Assembly (NCBI GenBank): GCA_020250175.1
Contig: JADCEN010000063.1
Location: 1-64,000, forward strand
DNA from: Rhodobacter sp.
GTDB taxonomy: Bacteria > Pseudomonadota > Alphaproteobacteria > Rhodobacterales > Rhodobacteraceae
Direction: 5' to 3'
Length of the DNA stretch: 64,000 nt
Notes under the pieces: generated by a model
Told to the model about the DNA's origin: nothing
Databases searched by the model: none
The model's input: only the letters and a program-made list of their open reading frames with translations
Shown here: positions 3,432 to 52,099 of the stretch, piece after piece
Layout of the letters: each line of letters begins with the position of its first letter
Numbering within the stretch: position 1 is the first letter of the stretch
Program-made: the position numbers and the translations under genes

Positions 3432-4817
3432 CTACTCCGCCGCCGTCACGGCGACCTGTGCCGCCGAAGAGGCGGGCATCAGGATGACAGGCTTGCCGTC
3501 CGCCGATTTGCAGGCCAGGTAGAACAGCACCCCGACATAGGCCAGGACAAGCGCCAGATAGACCGCCAGATAGGCCAGAAGCGTGCCCAGCACCATCGGT
3601 GCCGGTACAGTCGCCACCGCCTCTTTCGTGGTCAGCACCCCGGTCACCAGCCAGGGCTGACGCCCGATCTCGGTCGTATACCAGCCCGCCAGCGTGGCGA
3701 CCCAGCCGACAAAGGTCATGGCGACCGTGACCCGGAGGAAGAAGTTCGGCAGCCCGTCCACCCCGGCGCGGCGGCGGCGCATCAGCGCGACACCCGTCCA
3801 GGACAGCAGCAGCATCAGCACACCCACCCCGATCATGATGCGGAAGGCGTAAAAGACCGGTGCCACAGGCGGGTGCAGGGCCGTGCCATCGGCCGCGACG
3901 TAATCGTTCAGGCCCGGCACCGATCCGTCCATGCTGTGCGTCAGTATCAGCGACGCCCCGTGCGGAATGCCGATTTCCGCCAGGTTTTCGCGCTTGTCCT
4001 CATCCGGCCAGGCGAAAAGGATCAATGGTCGCGGCCCGCCGGTTTCCCAGTTGCCTTCCATCGCGGCAACCTTCGCGGGCTGGTATTTCAGCGTGTTCAG
4101 CCCGTGAAGATCCCCCAGGAAAATCTGGACCGGAATCAGCACCGCCGCCAGCCCCAGCGCAAAGCGCAGGGTCGCCGCGACCGACGCCGAACGGTCGCCC
4201 CGCAGGCGGCGGTAAGCCGAGAGCCCGGCGATCAGGAAGGCCACGGTCAGGCCAGAGGCGACAAGCATATGCGCCAGGCGGTAGGGCATGGACGGGTTGA
4301 AGATGATCTGCATCCAGTCGGTCGCATGCACGACACCATCGCGCAGCTCATATCCCTGCGGCGTATGCATCCAGCTGTTCAGCACCAGAATCCAGAAGGC
4401 CGAAAGGGTGGTGCCGAAGGCCACCAGAAAGGTGGACAGCGTGTGCAGCCAGCCGGGCACGCGGGTGGCCCCGAACAGCATGATGCCCAGGAACGCCGCC
4501 TCCAGAAAAAAGGCCGTCAGCACCTCATAGGCCAGAAGCGGACCGGCGACGTTGCCCACGGTTTCCATGAATCCCGGCCAGTTGGTGCCGAACTGAAAGC
4601 TCATGGTGATGCCGGACACGACCCCCAGGGCGAAGGACAGTGCAAAGACCTTCACCCAAAAGCCATAGGCCTCCATCCATTTGGGGTCGCGCGTGGCGTT
4701 GAAGCGCAGCTTGAAGAACAGCAGGACCCAGCCCAGCGCGATGGTGATGGTCGGAAACAGGATGTGGAACGAGATGTTCGCGCCGAACTGGATGCGCGAC
4801 AGCAGCAGGGTATCCAT
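3432..4817 (-). CDS. cydA: Cytochrome bd-type quinol oxidase subunit I (CIO type)
   Basis: A 461-residue subunit I that carries the haems and the quinol site. Visible residues that match known ligands and proton-path positions are H18 (FHILFPT), E98 and E106 (YEVLTAFFLEAAF), H183 (YRLAHM), M328 (FRIMIG) and the GRQPW block at 385-389. The KYQPAKVAAMEG stretch at about 244-255 opens the Q-loop. At 461 residues it is shorter than E. coli CydA (about 520), and the loop is short, as in cyanide-insensitive oxidases. The start ATG at 4817 is unambiguous. Upstream lies 1.4 kb of non-coding, repeat-filled DNA in which I saw no clear FNR-type box. Confidence 0.95.
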   Translation of the reverse strand: MDTLLLSRIQFGANISFHILFPTITIALGWVLLFFKLRFNATRDPKWMEAYGFWVKVFALSFALGVVSGITMSFQFGTNWPGFMETVGNVAGPLLAYEVLTAFFLEAAFLGIMLFGATRVPGWLHTLSTFLVAFGTTLSAFWILVLNSWMHTPQGYELRDGVVHATDWMQIIFNPSMPYRLAHMLVASGLTVAFLIAGLSAYRRLRGDRSASVAATLRFALGLAAVLIPVQIFLGDLHGLNTLKYQPAKVAAMEGNWETGGPRPLILFAWPDEDKRENLAEIGIPHGASLILTHSMDGSVPGLNDYVAADGTALHPPVAPVFYAFRIMIGVGVLMLLLSWTGVALMRRRRAGVDGLPNFFLRVTVAMTFVGWVATLAGWYTTEIGRQPWLVTGVLTTKEAVATVPAPMVLGTLLAYLAVYLALVLAYVGVLFYLACKSADGKPVILMPASSAAQVAVTAAE

Positions 4818-5284
4818 GGCTCACCTTCTTTTCATATCGCCCAGATAGTCCGCAGCGCTGCAAATGCAGCACAGGTGCGACCAGCCGCCACGCCCGCGCC
4901 GAAGTGCCCCGGCGACCGGGGGCCTGTCCGCTTCCCCCTGCGCGCAGCCGGTCACGGCGGTCTGTCAGCCCCCGGCAGGCAACCGGTGCCCGGCCCCGCC
5001 CTGGCGCTCTGCGGACAGGGTGCGGCTTTTGGATCGCAGGGGCATGGCGCCGGCCGGGAAGCTGACCGGGAGTATGCCCGTCCTCCCGGCTTTCATCCGA
5101 ATTGCGGGCAGCGCCTGTCGTCAAGGGCTGCCCGTCTGCCGAACAGGCATCATGGCCGCTTGCCGGACGGGGAGTTTTCCTGAACCGCCTGACATGGGCT
5201 GCCGTTCCGGGCGGATCAGGAACCGCGCCGCGTCGCTCCGCCCGGTCAGGGGCCACGGTTCCATATGGACCCGTCATGCCAGCG
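4818..5284. other. Non-coding stretch upstream of cydA
   Basis: This holds the leader of cydA, which is on the minus strand, and G+C-rich sequence. Open frames here run through on both strands but resemble no family and are explained by base composition. No promoter with good -35/-10 spacing stood out. Confidence 0.5.
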
Positions 5285-5935
5285 CACCGAAAGACCGGCA
5301 CCCGCCGTGGGCGGGGTGGGGGCTGTGGCCTCCGGCTGGCGGCGGGGCAGCGTGGCGTTGTGGCAGGGGCGATGGCCCCTGCCATGGCAGCGGTGAAAGT
5401 ACCTTCACCGTCTCCGGGCGGGAACAGGAAACGCACTGCGTTTCCCCCGCCCGCGCGGGACGGTGCCCTGCAGACCGGCAGGTCCGGGCACAGCAGAGGC
5501 CAGCGCCCGACCCGGCGGGCGAGAAGCGCCCGCCAGGGGCGGGTCGGGCGCTGGCCGGGGGCTTTGGCCCCCGGCTGGCCAAGGGGCAGCGTGGCGCTGT
5601 GGCAGGGGCGATGGCCCCTGCCATGGCAGCGGTGAAACTGCTTCCGCCACTCCGGGCGGGAACAGGAAACGCAGCGCGTTTCCCCCCGCCCGCGCGGGAC
5701 GGTGCCCTGCAGACCGGCAGGTCCGGGAGCAACGAAGGACAGCGCCCGCCGTGGGCGGGGCGGGCGCTGGCCTGGGGCTTTTGGCCCCCGGCAGGCCAAG
5801 GGACAGCGCGGCGCTGTGGCAGGGGCGATGGCCCCTGCCATTTCAGCGGATAGAGTGCTTTCGTCAGTGCGGGCGGGATCAGTAAACGTACCGCGTTTCC
5901 CCGTCCGCGCGACGGTGCCCCGCAGAGCGGGGCGT
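5285..5935 (-). repeat. Palindromic repeat array, copy A (three units)
   Basis: Three tandem units of about 217-239 bases. The marker hairpin GGCAGGGGC..GCCCCTGCC begins at 5362, 5601 and 5818, giving spacings of 239 and 217. Each full unit holds several nested stem-loops: GGAAACGC..GCGTTTCC inside a CCCGCC/GGGCGG frame, CCGGGGGC-caaa-GCCCCCGG (as read on the minus strand), and a long arm GGCCAGCGCCCG..CGGGCGCTGGCC. The same array lies at 50815-51500 on the other strand. Here it follows moaA, in the minus direction, and precedes cydA. Translated in any frame it gives repetitive AGAIAPAT-like peptides, which I regard as artefacts. Confidence 0.88.
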
Positions 5936-6196: not shown

Positions 6197-7201
6197 CTAC
6201 CCCCCCGTATGGCTCATGTGCCGGGTGACCTGGCCTGCAACCGTCTGGCGGGAATAGTCGAAATCATGCCCCTTTGGCTTGTGCCGGATGGCACTGCGGA
6301 TCGCCTGTTCCACAACGGCATTGTCAGCCGAGGCGCGCAGCGGGGCACGCAGGTCTGCCATGTCTTCCTGGCCAAGGCACATGTACAACTCGCCCGTGCA
6401 GGTCAGCCGAACCCGATTGCAGCTTTCGCAGAAGTTATGGGTCAAGGGCGTGATAAAGCCGATCTTCTGGCCGGTTTCCTCCAGCCGCACATAGCGGGCG
6501 GGGCCGCCGCTGCGCTCGGCCAGATCGGTCAGGGTAAAGCGGGCGGCAAGGCGCGCGCGCAGGTCTTTCAGCGACCAGTACTGATCCAGCCGGTCTTCAT
6601 TGCCCAGATCGCCCATCGGCATGACCTCGATAAAGGTCAGATCGTGGCCGCCCTGCGCGCACCAATCGGTCAGGGTGAACAGCTCATCCTCGTTCACGCC
6701 CTTCAGCGCGACCGCGTTGATCTTTACCCGCATCCCGGCGGCGCGGGCGGCGGCGATGCCGTCCAGCACCTGGGGCAGGCGGCCCCAGCGGGTGATCCTG
6801 GCAAACTTCGCAGGGTCCAGCGTGTCAAGCGAGACATTGATGCGCCTCACACCGCAGGCGGCAAGCTGGGGGGCATATCTTTCCAACTGCGAGCCATTGG
6901 TCGTGAGCGTCAATTCCTTCAGCGCGCCCGAGGCAAGGTGCCGCGACATCCGCTGGAAGAAGGTCAGGATACCCTTGCGCACCAGCGGCTCGCCCCCGGT
7001 GATGCGCAGCTTCTGCACGCCCAGCCCGATGAAGACCGAACAGAGCCTGTCAAGCTCTTCCAGCGATAGCAGGTCGGCCTTGGGCAGGAAGGTCATGTTT
7101 TCCGACATGCAATAGACGCAGCGGAAATCGCAGCGGTCGGTGACCGAAACGCGCAGGTACGTGATGGCGCGGGCAAAGGGATCAATCAGCGGGGTGTTCA
7201 T
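6197..7201 (-). CDS. moaA: GTP 3',8-cyclase (molybdenum cofactor biosynthesis)
   Basis: A 334-residue radical-SAM enzyme that, with MoaC, turns GTP into cyclic pyranopterin monophosphate, the first step of molybdopterin synthesis in the cytoplasm. The N-terminal cluster motif CDFRCVYC has cysteines at 24, 28 and 31, followed by [10 protein letters not shown]. The C-terminal cluster is CESC followed 13 residues later by another Cys ([20 protein letters not shown]). The protein ends in GG, the catalytically needed tail of MoaA. Length is normal for the family. No other moa gene is beside it. The palindromic array begins about 260 bases after its stop. Confidence 0.96.
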
Positions 7202-48462: not shown

Positions 48463-50409
48463 ATGACCCAGATCTCGCTTACTTTCCCTGATGGCAACCA
48501 GCGTGCCTTTGCGGCGGGCGTGACACCTGCCGAGGTGGCCGCCGCGATCTCGCCGGGCCTGGCGAAGAAAGCCGTGTCGGCTTCGGTCGACGGCGCGCCT
48601 TTCGATCTGCAATGGCCGATCGGGGCGGATGCCCGCATCGCCATTCACACACTGCAGGACGAGGCGGTGGTGCTGGAGCTGATCCGGCACGATCTGGCCC
48701 ATATCATGGCACGCGCCGTGCAAGAGCTGTGGCCGGAGGTGAAGGTGACCATCGGCCCGGTGATCAGGGATGGCTGGTACTACGACTTTGACCGCGCCGA
48801 ACCCTTCAGCGCCGAAGACCTTGGTGCCATCGAAACCCGGATGAAGCAGATCATCAACGCCCGCGACCCGGTCAGGACCGAGGTCTGGGACCGTGACGCG
48901 GCCATCGCCTTTTACAGGGCCAAGGACGAACCCTTCAAGGTGGAACTGGTCGAGGCGATTCCGGCCGACCAGAAGATCCGCATGTACTGGCACGGACCCT
49001 GGCAGGACCTGTGCCGGGGCCCGCATCTGCAACATACCGGGCAGGTGCCCGCCGACGGCTTCAAGCTGATGTCGGTGGCCGGGGCCTATTGGCGCGGCGA
49101 CAGCCGCAACAAGCAGCTGCAGCGCATCTATGGCGTGGCCTTCCGCAACCGCGAAGACCTGAAAGCCCACCTGACCATGCTGGAAGAGGCCGCAAAGCGC
49201 GACCATCGCCGCCTGGGCAAGGAGATGGAACTGTTCCACCTGCAGGAAGAAGCACCGGGCATGGTGTTCTGGCACCCCAACGGCTGGCTGATCTACCGCA
49301 CGCTGGAAGATTACATCCGCCGCCGCCAGCGGGGGGCGGGTTACCAGGAAATCCGCACGCCGCAGGTGGTGGACCGGGTGCTGTGGGAACGGTCAGGCCA
49401 CTGGGAAGCCTACCGCGAGAACATGTTCATCGTCGAAGTGGACGAGGAAGGTGCAAGGGAAAAGCGTATCAACGCGCTGAAGCCGATGAACTGCCCCTGC
49501 CATGTGCAGGTCTATAACCAAGGCCTGAAAAGCTACCGCAACCTGCCGCTGCGGCTGGCCGAATTCGGGTCATGCCACCGGTATGAAAGCTCGGGGTCCA
49601 TGCACGGGCTGATGCGGGTGCGCGGGTTTACCCAGGATGACGCGCATATCTTCTGCACCGAAGAGCAGATCGAATCCGAATGTGCGAATTTCATCACGTT
49701 GCTGGCCTCGGTCTACAGGGACCTTGGTTTTGACGGCTTCGAGATCAAGCTGTCCACCCGTCCCGAGGTGCGAATCGGATTGGATGAAACCTGGGACAAG
49801 GTCGAATCGGCGCTGGAAAATGCCATCAGGAAAACCGGCAACGCCTATGAGATCGATCCGGGCGAAGGCGCGTTCTACGGGCCGAAGCTTGACTTCAAGC
49901 TGACCGATGCCATCGGGCGCAAGTGGCAGTGCGGCACCTTTCAGGTGGACCCGAACCTGCCGGCGCGGCTGGATGCCGAATATGTCGGCGAAGACGGCAG
50001 CAAGCACCGCCCCTATATGCTGCACCGCGCCATTCTGGGGTCGTTCGAGCGCTTCATCGGCATCATGATCGAAAACTACGCGGGCCGCCTGCCGTTCTGG
50101 CTGGCCCCGAGGCAGGTCGTCGTCGCCTCGATCGTCTCGGACGCGGATGCTTATGTGCACGAGGTTGTCGCGGCCCTGAAGGCGCGCGGCGTGCGGGCCG
50201 AGGCGGATGTGCGCAACGAAAAGATCAACTACAAGGTCCGCGAACATTCGGTGGGCAAGGTTCCGGTGATCCTGGCCATCGGCATGAAGGAAGTGCAAGA
50301 GCGTACGGTTTCCCTGCGCCGACTGGGCGATACGCAGACCGAAACGCTGTCTTTCGATGCCATGATCACCGCGCTGTCAACAGCCGCACTGCCCCCCGAT
50401 CTGGTCTGA
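48463..50409 (+). CDS. thrS: Threonyl-tRNA synthetase
   Basis: A 648-residue class II synthetase that charges tRNA-Thr. It begins with a TGS domain ([23 protein letters not shown]), followed by the editing domain (about 65-225, with [15 protein letters not shown] and the [14 protein letters not shown] zinc-like site). The catalytic core has [12 protein letters not shown] (zinc Cys), [31 protein letters not shown] and the anticodon domain at the end. AGGAAGG precedes the ATG at 48463. Length is normal. Confidence 0.98.
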
Positions 50410-50550
50410 CCCCGGCCTGCGCGCGCATGCGCTTCCCAGCGACGAAGCAAGCCTTTCCGGGCGTGCATGGCCCCTGGCCCGGAGCCGGACCAGGGCCACC
50501 CGCAGCGCGCGGCACCTGCGCCGCGTATGGGCTGTAAAGGGAAAGGTGGC

Positions 50551-50659
50551 CTGCCGACGCGCACCGTAAAGAGGTTCAACAGCACGAAGGGTTTTGGCGT
50601 CATCGCACCGGAGGGCGGGGGCAAGGGGATTTTCGTGCATCTGTCTGCTGTGGACCCAA
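50551..50659 (+). pseudogene. Truncated cold-shock-domain gene
   Basis: Codons from 50551 read PTRTVKRFNSTKGFGVIAPE and KGIFVHLSAVD, the first half of a CspA-type protein (about 69 residues when whole), including RNP1 (KGFGVI for KGFGFI) and RNP2 (IFVHLS). The usual TVKWFN has Arg for Trp, and the expected start codon position is CTG, with an in-frame ATG eight codons before. Similarity stops exactly where a 139-base repeat begins. The gene looks cut by that repeat. Confidence 0.72.
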
Positions 50660-50798
50660 GGGACTCCCCTTTGAATGTGTCAGGCCGCCCCCGGCTTCTT
50701 CCGGAGGAAATCTTGGTAACGATATCGCCCGGAGCCTGTGGTCTGTTTACCGGAAGGTCCGGTGACCGCCGGAAAAAGATCCAGATGCGATAGCCCTG
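50660..50798. repeat. 139-base repeat E, copy 1
   Basis: Begins GGGACTCCCCTTTGAATG and ends GATAGCCCTG. The second copy, same length and direction, is at 51524. The two match at most positions, with a cluster of differences near the middle. No terminal inverted repeats seen. Confidence 0.85.
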
Positions 50799-50814
50799 GG
50801 CGGCGGTAGGTGGT

Positions 50815-51500
50815 GCCTTGCGTTCCCGCCTGCCCCCCGCCCCCATGGCAAAGGCCATCGCCTTTGCCACAGCATTTCGGCGACACCCCTTGCAGCCGGG
50901 GGCCAAAGCCCCCGGCCATCGCCCGCCCCGCCGCCGGCGGGCGCTGGCCAGCGTTGTTCCCGGATCAGCCGGTCTGCAGGGCACCGTCGCGCGCGGGCGG
51001 GGAAACGCAGAGCGTTTCCTGTTCCCGCCCGGAGTGGAGGTGGCACTTCGTCGCTGTCATGGCAGGGGCCATCGCCCCTGCCACAGCGCTACGCTGCCCA
51101 TTGGCCAGCCGGGGGCCAAAGCCCCCGGCCAGCGCCCGCCCCGCCCACGGCGGGCGCTTCTCGCCCGCCGGGTCGGGCGCTGGCCTGCTTTGTTACCGGA
51201 CCTGCCGGTCTACGGGTCACTGTCCCGCGCGGGCGGGGAAACGCAGTGCGTTTCCTGTTCCCGCCCGCACTGAAAAAAGCAGTTCCACCGCTTCAAAGGC
51301 AGGGGCCATCGCCCCTGCCACGGCGCTACGCTGCCCCTTTGGCCAGCCGGGGGCCAAAGCCCCCGGCCAGCCCGCCCCCCGCCACCGGCGGGCGCTTCGC
51401 CCCTGCCGGGTCGGGCGCTGGCCTTCGTTGCGCGGGGTGCGATGGTCTTTGCCGCAACGTCCCGCAAGGGCGGGGGAAACGCGGTGCGTTTCCTTTGCCC
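50815..51500 (+). repeat. Palindromic repeat array, copy B (three units)
   Basis: The inverted counterpart of the array at 5285-5935. Marker hairpins begin at 50847, 51061 and 51298 (spacings 214 and 237), the mirror of copy A. In the first unit the stem is GGCAAAGGC/GCCTTTGCC where all others are GGCAGGGGC/GCCCCTGCC, so two base pairs changed on both sides. It lies after thrS in the direction of transcription, as copy A lies after moaA, and between the two copies of repeat E. Confidence 0.88.
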
Positions 51501-51523
51501 CGCCCGGAGAGGGGGCGAAATTG

Positions 51524-51662
51524 GGGACTCCCCTTTGAATGGGACAGGCCGCCCCCGGCTTCTTACGGAGGAAATCCTGGTGACGATATCGCCCGGAGCC
51601 TGTGTTTTGTTCTCAGCATGGTCCTGTGACCGCCGGAAAGAGATCCAATCGCGATAGCCCTG
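51524..51662. repeat. 139-base repeat E, copy 2
   Basis: Direct repeat of 50660-50798. Together the copies bracket the palindromic array, 864 bases start to start. The conserved part includes GGAGGAAATC and ACGATATCGCCCGGAGCC. It ends about 105 bases before the stop of the convergent ArsC-like gene. Confidence 0.85.
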
Positions 51663-51766
51663 CGTGGACCGGGCAGGGCCGAAACGCCGGGCCTGCATCC
51701 GCAAGGTTGCGTTCGAACGGCAGTCGGGACGGGCGCGGGTTGGCAGGCGGGCGGGTTGCGCCTGCT

Positions 51767-52099
51767 TCAGTCGGCTGCCAGAACGGCGGCCTGAACGCGC
51801 GTGTCCCAGCCCAGATACAGCGCCTCTCCCTTGCGGATCACGGGGCGCTTCATCAGGGTCGGTTGGGCTGCAAGCTGTTCTTCCGCATCCGACGCTTTCA
51901 GCCAGTCGCTCAGCCCGCGCCAGGTGGTCGAGGCGCGGTTGACCACGGCATCGCCAAAGGCTGACACAAGCTCGCCGATCTCGTCGGCGCTCATCGGGTC
52001 TGCGCGCACGTCGCGGAACTCTACCTCATGACCTGCAGCCTTTATGGCTTTCAGGGCCGTCTTGCAGGTGTCGCAGGTGGATATGCCGTACAGGATCAT
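51767..52099 (-). CDS. ArsC/Spx-family thioredoxin-fold protein (YffB-like)
   Basis: A 110-residue protein of the ArsC/Spx superfamily, which uses thiols. It begins MILYGISTCDTCKTALKAI, with a C9-x-x-C12 pair, and has the family block LVSAFGDAVVNRASTTWRGL and QPTLMKRPVIRKGEALYLGW. The Arg triad of true arsenate reductases is not fully evident, so it is more likely the YffB-type glutathione-dependent branch than an arsenate reductase. No ars genes nearby. Confidence 0.85.
   Translation of the reverse strand: MILYGISTCDTCKTALKAIKAAGHEVEFRDVRADPMSADEIGELVSAFGDAVVNRASTTWRGLSDWLKASDAEEQLAAQPTLMKRPVIRKGEALYLGWDTRVQAAVLAAD

Follow-up and report, generated by a model that had tools for sequence, protein, structure and literature searches.

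Two places in a 64,000-nucleotide stretch of DNA (the window) carry arrays of palindromic units that mirror each other, and the question raised by this locus is what such arrays are and what they might do at the ends of genes. A sequence-only reading of the window had described them as a pair of three-unit arrays, had suggested a role at gene 3' ends or in RNA, and had noted that repeats of this length might invert the segment between them. The genome (G000) belongs to the Rhodobacteraceae, as judged by its nearest named relatives; its best MoaA match, among the matches listed, is 86%.

Two inverted arrays of hairpin units

Each unit contains a constant landmark, a 22-bp hairpin, GGCAGGGGCGATGGCCCCTGCC, which in one copy shows two changed pairs. 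A pattern search places this hairpin on the plus strand at 5362, 5601 and 5818 (spacings 239 and 217) and on the minus strand at 51298, 51061 and 50847 (spacings 237 and 214). Both arrays are present, they are mutually inverted and about 45 kb apart, and the spacings reported earlier are reproduced exactly. Searched with an nhmmer profile, the arrays extend over 5201-5930 (plus) and 50837-51515 (minus), array 1 being slightly longer at its left end than first reported. A BLAST search with the unit at 5521-5740 returned four other array stretches at 85-91% identity over 172-217 columns, and further matches of 81% over 111 columns and 84% over 63 columns. A chance origin of these matches is excluded because the best E value is 4e-78. 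The features are as follows.

5201 to 5930, plus strand: array 1, three head-to-tail units, of which the first has diverged most, followed by the beginning of a fourth; flanked by cydA and moaA
5201-5409, 5411-5648, 5638-5870 and 5855-5930, plus strand: profile hits of array 1 (nhmmer, with BLAST support)
5416 to 5445, and another at 5654-5683, plus strand: hairpin E, the 5' hairpin of the unit (pattern; helices 1 and 2)
5505 to 5569, plus strand: most of hairpin A, which is long and central, and the start of hairpin B (pattern; helices 3-6)
5601 to 5622, also 5362-5383 and 5818-5839, plus strand: hairpin C, the 3' hairpin at the unit end (pattern; helix 7)
50837 to 51515, minus strand: array 2, three head-to-tail units; between thrS and an ArsC/Spx-like gene
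50837-51045, 51046-51282 and 51267-51515, minus strand: profile hits of array 2 (nhmmer)
51298 to 51319, also 51061-51082 and 50847-50868, minus strand: hairpin C of array 2 (pattern)
3432 to 4817, minus strand: cydA-like gene, cytochrome bd oxidase subunit I (Pfam PF01654); 5' end toward array 1
6197 to 7201, minus strand: moaA-like gene (Pfam PF06463, PF04055); 3' end toward array 1
48463 to 50409, plus strand: thrS-like gene (Pfam PF00587, PF03129, PF07973); 3' end toward array 2
51767 to 52099, minus strand: ArsC/Spx-like gene (Pfam PF03960); 3' end toward array 2 from the opposite side

The gap that holds array 2 is convergent. For array 1, placed upstream of cydA but downstream of moaA, both neighbouring genes are on the minus strand. 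Long open frames cross the arrays, yet a codon model calls no gene in them. A third array is found on the same contig (C60) at 65835-66171, just past the window.

The arrays sample a genome-wide pattern

The sequence-only reading predicted further copies, and these exist both in this genome and in its relatives. A single-unit query gave 111 matches in the genome (3.89 Mb, 86 contigs) at 40 sites, of which five had one match each, and a profile search of the fetched loci gave at least 42 sites. The latter figure is a minimum because three copies of a second repeat, R2 (described below), located elsewhere in the genome, are followed by the beginning of another unit (L149, L152, L153). Several other sites match the query unit at 91%, which equals or slightly exceeds the match of array 2 (90%). 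The window arrays are not a special pair; they are a sample of a genome-wide pattern. None of the 42 sites lies within a called gene, and four overlap the end of one by 2-20 bp. Many array sites reach contig ends, and where these permit reading the longest arrays attain 1.3 kb. Units are arranged head to tail; mixed sign occurs in 2 of the 40 BLAST-defined arrays, in each case from a match shorter than 60 bp, and 2 of the 42 profile-defined sites were marked as mixed in orientation. When six relatives of the same genus were searched, three (G001, G004, G005) were found to carry many copies and the other three (G002, G003, G006) gave no match to the unit.

The repeat is a cassette of about 215 bp with the hairpin order E-A-B-C, sharp ends and no called gene inside. 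The arrays mostly start or stop near one part of the profile, which suggests that the unit spans hairpin E to hairpin C, and 25 aligned single cassettes from other genera have common sharp ends with E first and C last. The cassette is single in other Rhodobacteraceae, including all the copies fetched from Paracoccus shandongensis (G073, via L171), and forms tandem arrays in this genome and its close kin. At a threshold of E<=1e-4, a covariance model built from 46 units finds a match in 89 of 198 genomes of the family (each from a different genus), with the full cassette established only for this genus, Paracoccus and a few others (among them G018, G032, G243, G255 and G091), because many of the weak matches barely exceed hairpins A and B and the E values are rough. 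No report of this cassette family was found in open-licence PubMed Central. Phage records contained no match to the cassette. Among plasmid records, 24 of Phaeobacter and Leisingera match over about 65-70 bp only, corresponding to hairpin A; this plasmid stretch is 80-83% identical in the 20 records listed, and no feature is annotated there. The hairpin A/B core adjoins the CysRS gene in three genera (L331, L340, L345; Pfam), lying in L345 in the gap between CysRS and a citramalate-synthase-like gene, and the neighbouring start region in L323 reads like the CysRS cases.

The cassette prefers gene ends and has no preferred orientation

To place the cassettes among genes we used a codon model trained on this genome, which was also applied to Paracoccus, a genus outside its training; in the window, 10 of the 10 gene calls tested had a Pfam match. 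In this genome, 13 of 28 arrays are in convergent gaps, compared with 23 of the 137 other gaps between 20 and 3000 bp in length (p=0.001), after 14 of the 42 arrays had been dropped for lying at a contig or locus edge. The remaining arrays are in divergent (6/28) and co-directional (9/28) gaps. For the sister species, as far as it was fetched, the proportions are 6 of 17 arrays against 7 of 79 other gaps (p=0.01), with 35 of 52 arrays dropped on the same ground. The preference is strongest for the single cassettes of P. shandongensis and four congeners, where 22 of 29 fetched cassettes are in convergent gaps, compared with 10 of 103 other gaps (p=8e-12), a background that omits gaps shorter than 20 bp and thereby 5 of the 15 convergent gaps without an element at the Paracoccus loci. 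When the single cassettes are pooled, 28 of 41 are in convergent gaps, 2 of 43 having been lost to edges. For P. shandongensis itself the count is 14 of 16, and all 14 are within 38 nt of both stop codons; this supersedes a count of 10 of 15 from self-trained gene models. The sister-species arrays and the Paracoccus cassettes are samples drawn from among the matches listed, and cassette matches of 60 bits or less, including fragments in L267, L270, L305 and L310, are outside the context counts. A gene caller retrained on a pooled set had returned mostly divergent contexts, an outcome contradicted by the conserved stop codons at the L262 site (see below). The flank alignments made alongside it are independent of gene calling and are retained, whereas the gene calls for L317-L345, likewise from a pooled model, do not enter the counts.

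The enrichment in convergent gaps bears out the link to 3' ends that had been drawn from the window. The accompanying claim, that arrays keep one orientation relative to the incoming gene, is not general. In co-directional gaps the cassette points with the genes 11 times and against them 16 times (p=0.44). Among six orthologous gaps that contain a cassette in two Paracoccus species, two show opposite orientations (one of the copies, in L310, is a fragment), and in the thrS gap the array of G000 is opposite to that of G001 and G005. The cassette prefers gene ends, in either orientation.

One reading of this preference is that the hairpins would form a barrier at the ends of converging transcripts. 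The preference alone is also expected of a repeat that is harmful elsewhere, and this counts against the barrier reading, as do the arrays in divergent and co-directional gaps, where a terminator is not obviously wanted. We must also consider, with the arrays in divergent gaps in its favour, that the cassette is a selfish or neutral repeat with no function at 3' ends, which survives between convergent genes as the least harmful place, and that any hairpins it has replaced were lost by chance or were redundant. Repeats of Pseudomonas fluorescens with the same tail-tail bias are read as occupying a "least worst" location by Silby et al. 2009 (PMC2718517). Tolerance at the least harmful site remains a serious rival, to which we would give clearly less than even odds; the close approach of the convergent P. 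shandongensis cassettes to both stop codons argues against it, and further evidence on each side is given in the following sections.

Paired changes in the hairpins and a test of strand

The hairpins that had been noted in every unit of the window covary across copies. The consensus of 46 sequences contains 43 pairs, and 96.5% of the 1973 cells are paired. Changes on both sides are found in 16 of the 43 pairs, values that none of 500 shuffles reached, and controls in which the partner was slid lose the signal. The clearest case is hairpin C (helix 7), which has the most both-side changes among the helices and whose two arms change together across genera. Of the two observations that the sequence-only reading had named as speaking jointly against itself, random orientation relative to flanking genes is what we find, and absence of covariation is not, since in this alignment the covariation is strong.

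Covariation of this strength would be expected if the cassette were a structured RNA, a 3'-UTR element or a small RNA, read from one strand. A functional RNA of this kind would tolerate G-U over A-C mismatches, and thus the two classes of mismatch can be used to ask whether one strand is preferred. In 166 of 174 units (those longer than 170 bases) and 44 pairs, stem mismatches comprise 110 G-T and 117 A-C (p=0.69), and the pair columns with a mismatch number 39 and 42 of 44, respectively. There is no preference for a strand, so that a one-strand RNA is unlikely. The smaller alignment of 46 sequences does lean toward G-U (41 against 22 A-C), about half of this coming from three pairs, and copies outside this genus show 23 G-T and 15 A-C, with 18 against 2 in hairpin A alone. 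The random orientation of the cassette relative to genes also tells against an RNA read from one strand, and Rfam gave no match at the gathering score within the window and nothing on the elements of four loci at E<=1. We consider such an RNA very improbable. On balance, the larger set favours a strand-symmetric form, which may consist of DNA hairpins or of RNA hairpins that are needed from both sides.

Strand symmetry is equally predicted if the arms of the palindromes are matched to one another by intramolecular template switching or gene conversion, in which case covariation would arise without selection and the structure would say little about function. The likeness of copies inside one genome fits such arm correction. 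What does not fit it is that across genera the four hairpins keep their order and hairpin C keeps its loop, and we regard arm correction as an unlikely source of the paired changes. The widespread compensatory changes also speak against a repeat that is merely tolerated.

Two sites with either a terminator-like hairpin or the cassette

Comparison of sites with and without a cassette bears on what occupied the gap otherwise. At the site represented by L262, at least 8 of 60 Paracoccus relatives have both flanks in place with 35-58 bp between them. Each of the eight that were read has a hairpin at this position: AAAGGCCGGGC...GCCCGGCCTT in five, AATGGCCGGGC...GCCCGGCCATT in one and GGGTGGGGTTTCACCCCACCC in two. 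P. shandongensis carries the cassette in its stead, 4 nt past one stop codon and 3 nt short of the other. At a second site, L301, the roles are swapped, P. shandongensis possessing the hairpin and G494 the cassette, with the proviso that, as called, the opposing reading frame of P. shandongensis continues across the hairpin. These are the two replacement sites seen in all, and at neither of them, both having an empty counterpart, was a native hairpin seen beside the cassette. If the cassette were a neutral insertion, a remnant-free replacement would not be expected by chance in a gap that is otherwise shorter than 60 bp, and this, together with the missing native hairpins, weighs against survival by mere tolerance. 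One route considered, entry of the cassette into the loop of the former terminator, was rejected, as there was no excess over shuffled flanks.

An intrinsic terminator is a G+C-rich hairpin with a U-run behind it. The cassette contains hairpins; against the terminator reading, the L262 cassette has no U-tract, and no intrinsic terminator was called in it by a scanner that also missed a terminator-like hairpin in L281, for which reason the scanner is a weak test. In the gaps of the window its terminator-like matches stay within the range of shuffles, which likewise counts against that reading. The alternation of hairpin and cassette is observed directly; an activity of the cassette in termination or in protection of 3' ends is putative.

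Mobility of the cassette and the R2 repeat

REP elements are associated with a RAYT, a Y1 transposase, and we searched for the corresponding family (PF01797). It was found in none of the 7 genomes of the genus and in 5 of 14 control genomes. In the family as a whole it occurs in 18 of 198 genomes, 9 of the 89 that match the cassette model and 9 of the 109 others, and hence shows no association with the cassette, on the understanding that the two draws of 198 genomes are the same genomes, as their handles suggest.

A different vehicle is suggested by R2, a second dispersed repeat of 145-150 bp with inverted ends, found at 15 places in G000. Two copies and a short direct repeat surround array 2.

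50657 to 50801, minus strand: R2 copy directly downstream of array 2, with MITE-like ends; a direct copy of 51524-51662
51524 to 51662, minus strand: second direct R2 copy, directly upstream of array 2
50650 to 50656 and 51664-51670, no strand assigned: GTGGACC, a 7-bp direct repeat that brackets the R2-array-R2 composite

Three lone copies (L155, L156, L157) are flanked, by reading, by 10-bp duplications that are exact or have one mismatch. R2 also abuts units at junctions that are shared among loci, on the downstream side in L143, L145, L147 and L148 and on the upstream side in L149, L152 and L153; in the table of these junctions 2 of 16 rows are duplicates (L146 and L150 repeat L143 and L145). 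R2 looks like a MITE, and it may have carried a few of the arrays. It could then be supposed that the cassette itself is a non-autonomous transposon of this type, moved by a conventional transposase, and that composites such as the one that splits a cold-shock gene between the GTGGACC repeats are traces of its movement. The inverted ends, the 10-bp duplications and the shared junctions agree with this proposal. Its reach is limited, however, as R2 occupies 15 places compared with at least 42 array sites, is beside 4 of the 42, and is nearly confined to G000 (one weak copy in G004, none in the five other genomes of the genus), whereas the cassette is family-wide. Furthermore, the target-site duplications that mark a MITE were not found in the 38 single cassettes examined, whose flanking duplications were not above those of shuffled flanks (the ends were set by pattern and are misplaced in a few rows), and the one transposase family searched, Y1, gave no match in the seven genomes of the genus. 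We judge transposition as a MITE to be an improbable explanation for the cassette.

Turnover of arrays and changes in gene order

The gap after thrS illustrates how readily arrays change. In G002, G003 and G006 it contains, by reading, an apparently whole cold-shock gene, and in G000 the R2-array-R2 composite interrupts that gene, the remains of which are read at about 50550-50656 and 51690-51760. In G001 and G005 the array after thrS is in the opposite orientation and is located at the end of the cold-shock gene. In G004 the gap has no array and is about 120 bp shorter than the length of a unit would need. Such high turnover, with an array lacking in one relative and flipped in two, is what a selfish repeat would display.

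Comparison of the flanks of 52 arrays of the sister species with array flanks in other genomes gave six that matched on both sides. Three of the six combine an upstream flank from one array with a downstream flank from a different one; two represent the thrS site, and one, a short reversed match, is ambiguous. For many arrays of the sister species no matching array flank turned up elsewhere, which, in this sampled part of its arrays, points to turnover of sites. The cydA and moaA genes are neighbours in G000 and are not neighbours in G001, G002, G004 and G005; in G005 the sequence that precedes moaA is the upstream flank of another array of G000.

These observations bear on the suggestion that the 45-kb segment of the window might invert. 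For this segment no inversion is seen, as the pairing of thrS with the ArsC/Spx-like gene is kept, around an array in G001 and G005 and as neighbours with no array in G004. A weaker form of it stands, in that some arrays are at junctions consistent with recombination between arrays. A junction in contig C4 of G005 was examined as the product of simply inverting the 20-kb segment that lies between two inverted arrays of contig C47. The flanks fit, but the remainder of the segment could not be located next to the junction in G005 C4, and this cause was rejected. That arrays lie at some gene-order junctions is an observation, and we infer homologous recombination as its cause.

Relation to known repeats

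The cassette may be compared with several known systems. Intergenic families of P. fluorescens, R0, R2 and others, are biased to convergent gaps according to Silby et al. 2009 (PMC2718517), and as described there they resemble the cassette in being palindromic, tens to hundreds of bp long and strain-variable. The excess between convergent genes that defines such tail-tail repeats is present in the cassette. The resemblance is one of description, and the cassette differs in having four hairpins, in spanning an alphaproteobacterial family, in forming tandem arrays in one clade and in being present, at two sites, where relatives have a hairpin that resembles a terminator.

REP and BIME elements are likewise palindromic and extragenic, often lie between convergent genes and are linked to recombination (PMC1525189). 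A REP is a palindrome of 20-40 bp, one end of which bears a GTAG or CGTC tag (PMC3733652), and a BIME consists of REPs in alternating orientation (PMC2817692). The unit of the cassette is about 215 bp, not 20-40 bp, and its copies are arranged head to tail, not alternating. Inspection of the alignment revealed no tag common to all cassettes; GTAG is present in many copies of this genus and is lacking from the corresponding position in those of P. shandongensis. REP elements with a RAYT (TnpA-REP) share with the cassette the features just listed, and the cassette departs from them in the lack of a RAYT match in the genus and of an association in the family. Convergent gaps are also where bidirectional intrinsic terminators lie, and at two sites terminator and cassette alternate with each other across species. 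The cassette exceeds them several-fold in length, and no U-tract is present in the one that was examined. Finally, the RIME elements of rhizobia are mosaic intergenic palindromes of Alphaproteobacteria, with a different host group, and are likened to the cassette by their general description, not by sequence. Our verdict is that the cassette is a new family within a known class, that of intergenic palindromic repeats biased to convergent gene ends.

A proposed explanation and its implications

We propose that the cassette is a REP/BIME-like family without a RAYT that settles at gene ends, serves there as an orientation-neutral substitute for the terminator, and recombines where it forms arrays, and we assign this reading a probability of roughly 0.5. 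In outline, a dispersed palindromic cassette would settle in the gaps between gene ends, above all convergent ones, and would replace the native terminator hairpin, working in either orientation. For each of the two converging transcripts, its cluster of hairpins would halt transcription or block 3' decay. Within the clade to which this genome belongs, the cassette has also multiplied in tandem, and the tandem arrays would be substrates for recombination, with gene order breaking at some of them. A more specific version is that a mobile terminator cassette without a RAYT lands in terminator hairpins between convergent genes, displaces them and assumes their function in either orientation, that it is probably copied by a mechanism templated on the palindrome, and that its tandem growth in one lineage has turned convergent gaps into points of chromosome rearrangement; taken as a whole, we hold this version to be doubtful and offer it tentatively.

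If the proposed explanation is correct, native terminators have been swapped at identifiable sites in Paracoccus while relatives kept the hairpin, and the replacement would be directly measurable. The coincidence of the cassette with contig ends and with changed gene order in the clade of the window would link an element of 3' ends to rearrangement. Lastly, the spread of this family in genomes with no recognised RAYT gene would raise the question of what moves REP-like elements.
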